From Acidobacteriota bacterium (GTDB taxonomy: Bacteria; Acidobacteriota; Terriglobia; UBA7540): 64,000 bases of DNA. Shown in pieces: positions 13,403 to 17,972 of this stretch. Numbering within the stretch: position 1 is the stretch's first letter; each line of letters begins with the position of its first letter. The DNA lies in the NCBI GenBank assembly GCA_021838785.1, contig JAKCCV010000005.1, positions 62,001-126,000 on the forward strand. Direction: 5' to 3'. Both the position numbers and the translations under genes were made by a program. Below the pieces are notes generated by a model, which was not told the origin of the DNA, made no database searches, and saw only the letters and a list, made by a program, of their open reading frames with translations.

Positions 13403-14437
13403 CTAGCCGCGTGCCGCCGCCTGCGCCGCCGTGAGTTCTTCTTTCGCCGTCTGAATCCACGGCATCATGCGCCGAAGTTCAGAGCCAACCCGCTCGATGG
13501 GATGCGCGGCCGCCTGCGCGCGCATCTCGAGAAAATGCTGGCGTCCTTGCTCGTTCTCCTGCATCCACTCGCGGGCAAAGCGGCCGTCCTGAATTTCCGC
13601 CAGCACCTTCTTCATGGTGTCGCGCACGTGGGCGTCAATCACCCGCGGCCCGCGCGTGTAGTCGCCGTATTCGGCGGTGTCGGAAACAGAATAGCGCATG
13701 TACTTGATGCCGCCTTGATAAATCAAATCCACAATCAGTTTCAGTTCGTGGAGACACTCAAAGTAGGCAATTTCGGGCTGATAGCCCGCCTCCAACAAGG
13801 TTTCAAAAGCGGTGGTGATGAGCGCCGAGACGCCGCCGCACAGCACCGTCTGCTCGCCAAAGAGGTCGGTTTCGGTTTCTTCTTTGAACGTGGTGCGAAT
13901 GACGCCCGCCTTCAGGCTGCCGAGACCCTTGGCGTAAGCGAGCGCCGTCGCTTCGGCGTGGCCGCTCGCATCCTGCTCCACGGCGAGCAGCGCCGGAACG
14001 CCGACGCCTTCGGTAAACAGCTCGCGCAGCCGATGCCCGGGGCACTTGGGCGCAATCATCACCACATCCACCGACTTGGGCGGCGCAATGAACCGATAAT
14101 GGATATTAAAGCCGTGTGCGAAGAGCAGCGTTTTGCCGGCGGCCAGATGCGGCTCAATCGCTTCTTTATAAAGCTTGGCCATCGGCGGGTCAGGTACGAG
14201 CAGCGCCACCACATCCCCTCGGCGCGCCGCTTCCGCCGGATCGTACACTTCCAGCTTCTGCGCTTGCGCTTTGGCGCGCGAGGCACTCGTCGCCGGCAGG
14301 CCAACAATCACCTTCACCCCGCTGTCGCGCAGATTCAGCGCGTGGGCGTGGCCTTGGCTGCCATAGCCGATAATGGCAACCGTCTTTCCGGCCAAATGCT
14401 TCAAATCGCCGTCCTTTTCGTAATAAACCTTCGCCAT
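13403..14437 (-). CDS. ilvC: Ketol-acid reductoisomerase (class I)
   Basis: Second common step of branched-chain amino acid synthesis: isomerisation and NADPH reduction of acetolactate. 344 residues, class I length. [12 protein letters not shown] start, [17 protein letters not shown] nucleotide motif, and the magnesium-binding C-terminal knot region with [16 protein letters not shown] and [17 protein letters not shown]. The ATG at 14437 was preferred over the frame's upstream start because GAGGAAA precedes it and the family begins here. Last ilv gene after ilvB and ilvN. Confidence 0.96.
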
Positions 14438-14494: not shown

Positions 14495-14974
14495 TTAGCT
14501 CGCGGAAGCCCCTTCCTGATGCAGGGTGGGGCGAGTGGTTTGCGCCGGAACAAGCGGCACGCAGCGGGACGCTTCCAGCTCCGGCAGCGCCCGCGGTAGG
14601 TGGTGGGAGTTCGAGCCAGCCAGCAGGAACTTCCCCTCGCTCGCAAAAATCACCTCCGATTGCGGAAAAACCTCCAGCAGCCGTCCCAGCGTCACCGCGC
14701 TGCCCGCCGCATCGACAAAAATAAACGACGCCTCCGGCGACGCTTCCTGACGATAACTGGTGACGTGGCGAATCCCTTCCGTGCGGCGAAGGAAGTGGAA
14801 CAAATGCGCGCCCGCTCCATCCGCCGCTTCCGCCAGCGCGGTGATGGAATAGCTTGCTTCGCCGGAGGAAACCACCATTGTCGCGAGCTTCAGCCCCTTG
14901 CGCCTGAAGATGTTCATCAAGCGGCACAGGGTAATCGCATCCTTTTCCGTTTCCAACATCAACAACCATTGCAT
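14495..14974 (-). CDS. ilvN: Acetolactate synthase small (regulatory) subunit, ACT-domain protein
   Basis: Predicted regulatory subunit of acetohydroxyacid synthase; ACT domains bind valine and give feedback control. 159 residues. The N-terminal half (LLMLETEKDAITLCRLMNIFRRKGLKL region) has the ACT fold pattern; the C-terminal half is divergent from the classical IlvN/IlvH second domain. Identity rests on its place between ilvB and ilvC (86 and 57 bases) as well as on the ACT pattern, so a variant single-ACT subunit is possible. Confidence 0.78.
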   Translation of the reverse strand: MQWLLMLETEKDAITLCRLMNIFRRKGLKLATMVVSSGEASYSITALAEAADGAGAHLFHFLRRTEGIRHVTSYRQEASPEASFIFVDAAGSAVTLGRLLEVFPQSEVIFASEGKFLLAGSNSHHLPRALPELEASRCVPLVPAQTTRPTLHQEGASAS

Positions 14975-15060: not shown

Positions 15061-16803
15061 TCACACCGCCCACAAATCGTCCAAAACCTCTTCTTCCGCC
15101 ATCACGCGAGGCGGCTCGACGATCATCTCTGCGAGCGAGGCGCCCGGCGGCACAATGGGATAGCAGTTTTCCGCCGGATCCACCCAGAAATCCACCAAGC
15201 GCGGCTCGCGGTCGCTCAGCAGTTCCCGCGCCGCTTCCGCCACGTCCGCCCGATGCTCCACCCGCGTGGCCGGGATGCCGTAGGATTCTGCCAGCTTCAC
15301 GAAGTCCGGGGCAAAGTTCAGGTCAATATCGCAGAACCGCTTCTCAAAAAAGATCTCCTGCCACTGCCGCACCATGCCGAGCGAGCGGTTGTTGATGACC
15401 GCTATCTTCACCGGAACGCGATACTGAACAATGGTCGCCAAATCATTCAAGGTCATTTGGAAACCGCCGTCGCCCACCAGCGCAATCACTTGCCGGTCAG
15501 GAAAGGCCATCTGTGCGCCCATGGCGGCGGGAAAACCGTAGCCCATGCTGCCGAGACCGCTCGAGGAAAGCCACGTGCGCGGTTGGCGAAAATTGTAAAA
15601 CTGAGCCGCCCACATCTGGTGCTGGCCCACATCCACGGCAATAATCGCATCGTCCTCGGCCGCTTCCGAAATAGCTTCCACCACGTACTGCGGCTTGGCG
15701 AGGTGGGCGTATTTGTCGTAGGTGAGCGGATGCTCCTGTCGCCAAGCCCGAATCCTTCCCAGCCACTGCTCGCGCTCGGCGAGGGCCACCGCCGGCCGAC
15801 GCTTGATTTCAGCAATCAGCGCCTGCAGGGCCTCCTTAGCGTCGCCCACCAAGGCCAAATCCACGGCAACATTTTTGTTGATTTCGGAAGGGTCCACGTC
15901 AAAGTGAATCTTCTTGGCTACCGGCGCAAAGCCGTCCAGCCGGCCCGTCACCCGGTCGTCAAAGCGCGCGCCCACGGCGATGAGCAAATCGCCATGACAA
16001 ATCGCCATGTTGGTGGCATACGATCCGTGCATCCCCAACATGCCGAGAGAGAGCGGATGGCGCGAGGGAAAAGTTCCCAGTCCCATGACCGTGGTGGTGA
16101 CCGGAATGCGCGTCAGCTCGGCCAGCTCCCGCAGTTCGTCCGAGGCCCCGGAAGCAACCACGCCACCGCCCGCATAGAGCACGGCGCGGCGGCTCTCAAG
16201 CAGCATGTCGGCCGCGCGCGCAATGTCGGCCTCGGTCCACTCGCGCGGGCGCGTCGGGCGCTCGTAACGCGGGCTTGTGGGTTGCGCGGGGTCGGCCTTC
16301 TCCATCAACACGCTCTTCGGAAGATCCACCAACACCGGCCCCGGCCGACCGGATACCGCAATCTCAAAAGCCTTCTCGATGACTTCTGGAATCTCCGCCG
16401 CCCGCTTCACCAGAAAAGCGCGCTTGGTGGCGGGAAGCGCCATGCCCACCGTGTCGGCTTCCTGAAAAGCATCCTTGCCAATCAGCGGCGCAGGAACTTG
16501 CCCCGTCAGCGCCACGACGGGGATGGAATCCATCAGCGCGGACATGAGGCCGGTCATCATGTTGGTCGCGCCGGGGCCGGACGTTGCCAGGCAAACCCCG
16601 GGCTTGCCTGTCACGCGAGCGTAACCGTCGGCGGCAAAAGCCGCCGCTTGCTCGTGTCGCACCAGAAGATGCCGAATGCCGGCGCTATAAAGCGCGTCGT
16701 AAAGCGGCAGCACCGCCCCTCCCGGAAGACCAAAAATCACCTCGACCTTCTGCCGACGAAGACTTTCCAGAAGAATCTCCGCCCCAGGGACTGGGTTGCT
16801 CAT
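15061..16803 (-). CDS. ilvB: Acetolactate synthase large (catalytic) subunit
   Basis: Thiamine-diphosphate enzyme joining two pyruvates, or pyruvate and 2-oxobutyrate, the first step of Val/Leu/Ile synthesis. 580 residues. GLPGGAVLPLYDAL at the start, VRHEQAAAFAADGYAR with the catalytic Glu, GPGATNMMTGLM, and near residue 440 GDGGFQMTLNDLAT, the ThDP-magnesium motif ending in NN. GGAGGAGCGCCT precedes the ATG. First gene of the ilv block, behind the promoter/operator at 16965-17014; no leucine- or valine-rich leader peptide was found in between. Confidence 0.96.
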   Translation of the reverse strand: MSNPVPGAEILLESLRRQKVEVIFGLPGGAVLPLYDALYSAGIRHLLVRHEQAAAFAADGYARVTGKPGVCLATSGPGATNMMTGLMSALMDSIPVVALTGQVPAPLIGKDAFQEADTVGMALPATKRAFLVKRAAEIPEVIEKAFEIAVSGRPGPVLVDLPKSVLMEKADPAQPTSPRYERPTRPREWTEADIARAADMLLESRRAVLYAGGGVVASGASDELRELAELTRIPVTTTVMGLGTFPSRHPLSLGMLGMHGSYATNMAICHGDLLIAVGARFDDRVTGRLDGFAPVAKKIHFDVDPSEINKNVAVDLALVGDAKEALQALIAEIKRRPAVALAEREQWLGRIRAWRQEHPLTYDKYAHLAKPQYVVEAISEAAEDDAIIAVDVGQHQMWAAQFYNFRQPRTWLSSSGLGSMGYGFPAAMGAQMAFPDRQVIALVGDGGFQMTLNDLATIVQYRVPVKIAVINNRSLGMVRQWQEIFFEKRFCDIDLNFAPDFVKLAESYGIPATRVEHRADVAEAARELLSDREPRLVDFWVDPAENCYPIVPPGASLAEMIVEPPRVMAEEEVLDDLWAV

Positions 16804-16964
16804 AGGCGCTCCTCCGAATGAACCGTTCCTTTCATCTCCCTCAACCGATCCCTACGCCGTGCCCGCTTGGTCCACGTTTGCCTGGCCTCCGACCTGAATC
16901 CACTCGGTCACGAACCTATTTTCTACTGGCCGGCCTGGTCGCGCTAAATAAAGACCTAAGTTCG

Positions 16965-17014
16965 CTACCGACCGGTCGGTAGATAATCTAGCAAGACGCC
17001 AAGACGGTTGTCAA
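16965..17014 (-). promoter_or_regulatory. Strong promoter with an 18-bp perfect palindrome (TetR-type operator) for ilvBNC
   Basis: On the minus strand the -35 is a perfect TTGACA (17014-17009) and the -10 is TAGATT (16990-16985), 18 bases apart. Immediately after the -10, covering the expected start near 16978, is CTACCGACCGGTCGGTAG (16965-16982), symmetric at every position. Its form resembles operators of TetR/AcrR-family repressors, and a protein bound there would block RNA polymerase. The ilvB start is 162 bases downstream. The regulator is not in the window. Confidence 0.7.
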
Positions 17015-17026
17015 CCCCTTTCTTTG

Positions 17027-17078
17027 GTGGCACGGCCATCTTGGCCGTGTCCCTGCACGGGCGGGACGCCAGTGCCAC
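17027..17078 (+). repeat. Dispersed 52-bp palindromic repeat, copy 4
   Basis: GTGGCAC at 17027 and GTGCCAC ending at 17078 enclose GGCCATCTTGGCC and a CACGGGCGGGACGCC arm. Nearly identical to the copy at 36160-36211. It lies 13 bases upstream of the ilv -35 box. The remaining 17079-17249 holds nothing I can name. Confidence 0.9.
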
Positions 17079-17249
17079 GCGAAACGCTAACCCTCGTAAA
17101 TGAAAATTTTACTCTTCCTCCCAAGGGCAAATCCTTGGCACACGGCCCAGCACCACATCTAATCAATTGAACTTAAACAAGATAGCTTTGCTTCCAAATG
17201 GCATCACGGTTGCTCTTCTGGTTGTTCTCGTCTATCGAAGGAGGCCAGA

Positions 17250-17972
17250 ATGAAATCGAAGCGATATCTCCTGACCACCGCAATCGTCATGCTGTGTGGC
17301 GCGCTTGCCGGCTGTCACAGCGCGTCCAAGACCTCGACCTCATCGCAGAGCCAGCAGCCCAGCAACTCAACCGAAGCTTCCGCGAATTCAAATCCAAACT
17401 CGTATCCCTCGGAGGCTGCTGCGAGCACGACCTATGACCAGCCGCAACAAGTAATTTCCTACACGGTGCCGAGCGGCTCGCCCATTGTCGTGCGGCTGGT
17501 GGATAGCCTTGGCTCGGCGATTAGCCGAAGCGGCGAAACGTTTCGCGCCACGGTTGCCCAACCGGTCGTCATGAGCGGCCAAACGGTGATTCCTCAAGGC
17601 GCCGAAGTGACCGGAAGGGTCGTTGCGGCCCGACCCTCCGGCCATCTGGAAACGCCCGCCGAACTGGCGATTGAGCTGACCTCGGTGCGCGTGTACGGCG
17701 CCACCTACAACCTTTACACCTCCGAGCGTGGCTGGCGCGGTGCCTCGCATAAAGGTCACGACGTGAAGTGGATTGGGGCGTTGGCCGGAGGCGGAGCGCT
17801 GCTGGGCGCGCTGGTGGGTCATGGCAAAGGCGCCGCCATTGGCGCAGGTCTCGGCGCCGGGGCGGGCACGGCCACCGCTTATGCGACCGGCAAGAAGGAT
17901 ATCTATTTGCCTTCTGAAACCGAAATTCGCTTTACCCTTCGCCGGTCTTTAACGATCAGCCAAGGCGGTTAA
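17250..17972 (+). CDS. Glycine-zipper lipoprotein
   Basis: Probable outer-membrane or periplasmic lipoprotein, 240 residues, function unknown. The lipobox LAGC places the modified cysteine at residue 22. A Ser/Asn/Gln-rich linker follows to about residue 65, then VPSGSPIVVRLVDSLGSAIS, VIPQGAEVTGRVV, a glycine zipper near 175-210 (ALAGGGALLGALVGHGKG) and YLPSETEIRFTL at the end. Those blocks align in order with the exported protein at 6019-6840. GGAGG lies six bases before the ATG. Confidence 0.85.
   Translation: MKSKRYLLTTAIVMLCGALAGCHSASKTSTSSQSQQPSNSTEASANSNPNSYPSEAAASTTYDQPQQVISYTVPSGSPIVVRLVDSLGSAISRSGETFRATVAQPVVMSGQTVIPQGAEVTGRVVAARPSGHLETPAELAIELTSVRVYGATYNLYTSERGWRGASHKGHDVKWIGALAGGGALLGALVGHGKGAAIGAGLGAGAGTATAYATGKKDIYLPSETEIRFTLRRSLTISQGG

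Follow-up and report, generated by a model that had tools for sequence, protein, structure and literature searches.

A conserved palindrome at the ilvBNC start site of soil Acidobacteria as the predicted operator of an AibR-like TetR repressor

Background

The control of isoleucine-valine and leucine (ilv/leu) synthesis is standard textbook material, and only a few mechanisms are known. Acidobacteriota are among the most abundant soil phyla, and little is known of amino acid regulation there. The stretch of DNA that we analysed (the window, 64,000 nt) raises the question directly, as a perfect palindrome lies on the promoter of its ilvBNC operon. The initial annotation attributed this palindrome to a TetR-like repressor encoded elsewhere in the genome. 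Here we ask whether the palindrome is a genuine operator, which other genes carry it, which protein would read it and to what signal that protein may respond.

Results

A perfect palindrome covers the predicted ilvB start site

The features of the locus, in the order of transcription, are as follows.

17009..17014 (-): ilvB promoter -35, TTGACA (6/6); TTGAC is conserved in relatives
16985..16990 (-): ilvB promoter -10, TAGATT (4/6, with TG before it), after an 18-bp spacer; relatives have TAnnnT immediately before the operator
16965..16982: operator, the 18-bp perfect palindrome CTACCGACCGGTCGGTAG, over the predicted start site; kept at 26/27 family ilvB promoters
16804..16964 (-): ilvB 5' leader, without Rfam element
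15061..16803 (-): ilvB, acetolactate synthase large subunit; open reading frame with matches in 55/61 genomes
14495..14974 (-): ilvN, acetolactate synthase small subunit; open reading frame, same order in relatives
13403..14437 (-): ilvC, ketol-acid reductoisomerase; open reading frame with an assigned start codon; orthologs in other families have the operator directly upstream

The palindrome begins 2 bp past the -10 of a sigma-70 promoter for ilvBNC and thus covers the expected ilvB start site. This confirms the initial description of a perfect 18-bp palindrome directly after the -10 of a promoter with a perfect -35. The TTGACA/TAGATT pair is the sole promoter-like site in 16750-17300 (shuffle mean of 0.2), and the ilvB start codon at 16803(-) lies 161 bp downstream of the palindrome.

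Within the window, CTACCGACCGGTCGGTAG has no other match with up to 3 mismatches (expected 0.00; shuffles give none). A pattern search of the 3.42-Mb genome, again allowing up to 3 mismatches, found a single perfect copy, the one at ilvB, together with a site at leuA and one further site at C24:86980. The latter looks like chance; the reversed-pattern control gave 6 places. We also considered the divergent gene at 17250-17972 (+) as the controlled gene and rejected it, since G002, a near-identical genome, is the only other one in which a homolog adjoins the site, whereas ilvB does so family-wide.

The operator is conserved at ilvB across the family

To follow the site among relatives we used 61 genomes selected by kinship, namely the source family (f1) and then the order and class. 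The core TACCGACYRGTCGGTA occurs about once per f1 genome, mostly beside ilvB. Among the 27 f1 ilvB orthologs having full upstream sequence, all except G018 carry the site with at most 1 mismatch, right after the -10, so that the initial proposal, which depended on the palindrome being present in the ilv promoters of close relatives, holds on this point. Over its 18 bases the operator is 92 % identical in 25 f1 ilvB promoters compared to about 30 % for the flanks, which is the level of unrelated sequence, and the probability of an equally good chance match in 500 bp is near 8e-5. Once aligned on the operator, the f1 promoters share TTGAC, a spacer of 16-18 bp and mostly TAnnnT, with the operator directly after. 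These results provide strong in silico evidence that the palindrome is a real and strongly conserved predicted repressor-binding site at the start of ilvBNC in a group of soil Acidobacteria.

The distance from the f1 site to the ilvB start codon is mostly 20-65 bp and reaches 161-162 bp in the source species. The corresponding leader (16804-16964) is about 161 nt long in the source species compared to mostly 20-65 nt in relatives, and its extra length matches no known RNA element.

The predicted regulon extends to leuA and, in places, leuC and ilvC

We derived a weight matrix from the ilvB sites alone and scanned other promoters with it, using base-shuffled upstreams as background. A leuA site above the 99 % background level is present in 17 of 28 f1 genomes, and 3 more have a weaker copy at the same promoter position. 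In the source genome the leuA site (G000:C17:161105-161122) scores 17.5 compared to 12.3 for the largest shuffled value. The promoter layout differs from that of ilvB in that the leuA operator lies inside the -35/-10 spacer: TTGAC is followed by the operator and then by GAcAAT as the -10. By the matrix scan, about a third of the leuA and most of the leuC promoters of the family are without a site; within f1 the leuC site is confined to genus g10, and leuC of the source genome has none. The scan found the site at none of the f1 ilvD promoters; ilvD was accordingly rejected as a regulon member, and its promoters double as a negative control of the matrix scan.

In other genomes a 1-mismatch site precedes ilvC (G053, G013 and G054), and 2-mismatch copies precede ilvC in G143 and leuC in G047. 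Separately, G019 has a second perfect copy of the core (L164:3111-3126) about 180 bp before an apparent gltX (glutamyl-tRNA synthetase), which may be an extra target or chance.

A TetR protein linked to leuA and pheA is the candidate regulator

As initially noted, no regulator gene lies near the palindrome: none of the five genes of the genome that encode a TetR_N domain is on the contig of the window. A search for the palindrome upstream of TetR-family genes had also been suggested, and class-level relatives do have it there. Genomes of two families (G044, G052 and G059 of f9, G054 of f4) carry it in a tetR promoter, with leuA as the next gene. The same gene order with a 2-mismatch site is seen in a third family (f46, G121), and a second f4 genome, G047, has a 2-mismatch site between divergent tetR-leuA and leuC. 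In a fourth family, represented by G143, tetR adjoins ilvC and a 2-mismatch site is found 0.1 kb before ilvC.

One source TetR (L153/L188; G000:C34:42931-43518, minus strand) shares 38-49 % identity with the leuA-linked proteins. Its identity to the other four source TetRs is 20-26 %, and nothing comparable to the operator was found near the genes of those four. The in silico case is therefore strong that only this one of the five source TetRs fits as the regulator. Its gene lies beside pheA on another contig, far from the ilv operon, and its product would thus act in trans, which lends support to the arrangement foreseen in the initial annotation. Nearly every f1 genome, and likewise the sister family f2, has the ortholog as a single copy (273-330 bits), and in f1 it is mostly just upstream of pheA (prephenate dehydratase), for example at L312:6053-7519. 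The recognition helix, TKAGLYHH, is near-identical across nearly the whole clade. According to the matrix scan most f1 tetR promoters are without the operator, G010 being an exception, and the link to the regulator within f1 consequently rests on orthology and co-occurrence.

This co-occurrence was assessed phylum-wide by two independent searches, one for the operator and one for the protein. The exact core was found in 7 of 14 genomes with a strong TetR match compared to 2 of 233 genomes without (p=1.1e-8, related genomes treated as independent). At leuA, 15 upstreams from other families have no site within 3 mismatches; 14 are from genomes without a strong TetR match and the fifteenth is from G053, which has a weaker match. 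Compared with f1, this absence gives a Fisher p=5.6e-5, again with related genomes treated as independent, so that both p-values overstate the case.

AibR is the closest solved relative of the candidate regulator

The source protein contains a TetR_N domain (PF00440; 52 bits with a cut-off of 24), and its C-terminal domain families are TetR_C_24/TetR_C_4. The AlphaFold model (pLDDT 89) has an all-helical two-domain fold with hundreds of structure matches, TetR proteins being at the top (Z up to 22.6). By sequence, the closest solved relative is Myxococcus xanthus AibR, with 43 % identity over 186 residues (phmmer 1e-48, 169 bits compared to 88 for the next). The AibR structures also take Foldseek ranks 1-4, led by the isovaleryl-CoA/DNA complex 5k7z (TM 0.81/0.90, Z 22.4). 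AibR represses an alternative isovaleryl-CoA operon when bound to isovaleryl-CoA (PMC9131029, PMC6018408).

In the tree, the proteins whose genes adjoin leuA, ilvC or pheA fall into a single clade (97/93) that is sister to, and not inside, the AibR clade (100/99), with the joining and deeper forks being weak. The source gene lies beside pheA, with sites at ilvB and leuA and not at an aib operon (mvaS, aibA/B, aibC); aib-like linkage was found only in other families. We therefore call the source protein AibR-like and not an AibR.

Aib-like operons of other lineages mostly have the same or a near-identical operator

An AibR-like tetR and the same or a near-identical operator are found directly before mvaS-thiolase operons (L054, L147, L219, L383-L392, L395; mostly with operator) in other Acidobacteriota families and in a Gemmatimonadota genome. 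The L147 and L054 operons also encode DUF35 and an AibA-like CoA-transferase. The aib pathway has been described as perhaps restricted to myxobacteria (PMC9131029). As relatives of our TetR stand before aib-like operons, mostly with the same operator, operator and protein family have evidently moved as a pair from one set of target genes to another.

Taken over several phyla, at least 118 contig stretches carry the exact 18-mer, and 52 of them have a TetR gene within 400 bp, many of these being only distant relatives. The TetR-near copies are found above all in Anaerolineae, a few bases before the tetR start. At the two Anaerolineae/Chloroflexi loci that we looked at, a metallo-hydrolase-like and an acyl-CoA dehydrogenase-like gene follow.

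Discussion

A model for repression of ilvBNC and leuA

We propose that the AibR-type TetR repressor encoded at G000:C34:42931-43518 acts on the palindrome to control branched-chain amino acid synthesis, with an isovaleryl-CoA-like acyl-CoA as co-repressor, and we estimate the probability of this reading at roughly 0.85. Genome comparison establishes the predicted operator with its conservation, the promoter geometry, the regulon members, the TetR orthology and the co-occurrence. Given these, the source TetR probably binds the site and represses. A repressor dimer on the palindrome would cover -10/+1 of the ilvBNC promoter, and at leuA the repressor would occupy the -35/-10 spacer; RNA polymerase would thereby be kept from the genes for the enzymes that open the valine/isoleucine and leucine branches. 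The sequence of the two promoters is compatible with a single site blocking both layouts.

More tentatively, the ligand would be isovaleryl-CoA or a similar acyl-CoA acting as co-repressor, where both the ligand and the mode of repression are transferred from AibR, a 43 %-identical homolog. By this homology the co-repressor would be a branched acyl-CoA that stems from leucine, with isovaleryl-CoA as the most likely one. An ample supply of leucine and of the iso-fatty-acid primer would then load the repressor and turn off ilvBNC and leuA, a case of end-product repression. Isovaleryl-CoA derives from leucine and serves as the primer of iso-branched fatty acids. In cultured Terriglobales iso-branched acids are major lipids, with iso-C15:0 at 21-40 % (PMC12935467), and co-repression by this leucine-derived primer would thus make physiological sense.

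The source genome also encodes, at L413:1438-3549, a 703-aa fused alpha-beta E1 2-oxoacid dehydrogenase that is a candidate source of isovaleryl-CoA. It is a candidate branched-chain keto acid dehydrogenase, which the models do not separate from pyruvate dehydrogenase.

Alternative explanations

The same operator and TetR could instead follow ordinary TetR logic, where the ligand-free protein represses and a pathway intermediate such as 2-ketoisovalerate, isopropylmalate or an acyl-CoA lifts repression by feed-forward induction. This departs from the main model in the ligand step only. Isopropylmalate is an inducer for yeast Leu3, which speaks for such a scheme. So does the finding that most TetR proteins repress in their apo form (PMC6018408). 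However, AibR, the closest characterised relative, works the opposite way, and end-product co-repression suits a biosynthetic operon; we consider feed-forward induction possible but doubtful.

It is also conceivable that another regulator, either a different source TetR or a member of another protein family, binds the palindrome and that the leuA-linked TetR plays no part in it. As a TetR-type site the 18-mer is common, as seen from the many distant relatives among the TetR genes near it, and the tetR promoter of the source family usually lacks it. This reading would nonetheless have to account for the tetR-leuA operons of two other families with the same site in their own promoter, which we read as autoregulation, for the divergent ilvC-tetR arrangement with a site in another family, and for the phylum-wide association of operator and TetR with a recognition helix that hardly varies. 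The four remaining source TetRs, divergent in sequence and without a comparable site nearby, are poor substitutes, and we judge this explanation improbable. An RNA hairpin at the 5' end of the ilv transcript, as part of an attenuator or leader element, is more improbable still. A palindrome at the transcript start could fold and ilv operons are often attenuated, but the same sequence also stands before unrelated operons that include TetR genes, and at leuA it lies between -35 and -10, outside the transcript, where it cannot be an RNA hairpin. Furthermore, an Rfam search (E up to 5) matched the ilvB leader to no T-box or known leader family, and the leader contains no terminator-like site.

Implications

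The boldest reading compatible with these results is that, in an Acidobacteriota lineage, the synthesis of branched-chain amino acids has come under an AibR-type repressor for which isovaleryl-CoA stands for the end product; we give this about an even chance. If true, amino acid supply and the supply of iso-branched membrane lipids would share one sensor. To judge from literature searches on TetR control of ilv/leu genes, leuA, isovaleryl-CoA and Acidobacteria, which found no report of such a regulon, it would also be the first case in which a TetR that senses an acyl-CoA is shown to act on ilv/leu biosynthesis. The regulon (leuA, leuC, ilvC), the identity of the regulator and its AibR kinship are new beyond the initial annotation. 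What is gained is a defined operator, a small predicted regulon (ilvBNC and leuA, joined in some genomes by leuC and ilvC) and a named candidate regulator; for its closest relative of solved structure, a complex with ligand and DNA is available. A testable prediction of the model is that leucine synthesis and the iso-C15:0 / iso-diabolic lipids of these bacteria are linked. One operator family common to an amino acid regulon and to aib-like operons would be a clear case of regulon rewiring.

Comparison with known systems

AibR (PDB 5k7f/5k7h/5k7z) resembles the source protein in its TetR fold, its near-identical recognition helix and the metabolic theme of leucine and isovaleryl-CoA. Its targets are the aib operon and a thiolase, whereas the predicted targets here are ilvBNC and leuA, and the gene here adjoins pheA (in the source family), leuA or ilvC. 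PfmR of Thermus thermophilus and FadR of Bacillus, the latter solved with an acyl-CoA, have the same C-terminal domain families as the source TetR and are more distant than AibR (about 30 % and 22 % identity); their role is in the control of fatty acid or phenylacetate catabolism. BkaR (Rv2506; 19 % identical to the source TetR) and LiuQ are also TetR proteins tied to branched-chain metabolism, where they control branched-chain keto acid catabolism and not biosynthesis. Conversely, CodY, Lrp, IlvY, LtbR/NdgR (IclR), the T-box and the ilv/leu attenuators act on the same ilv/leu biosynthesis targets but belong to other protein or RNA families.
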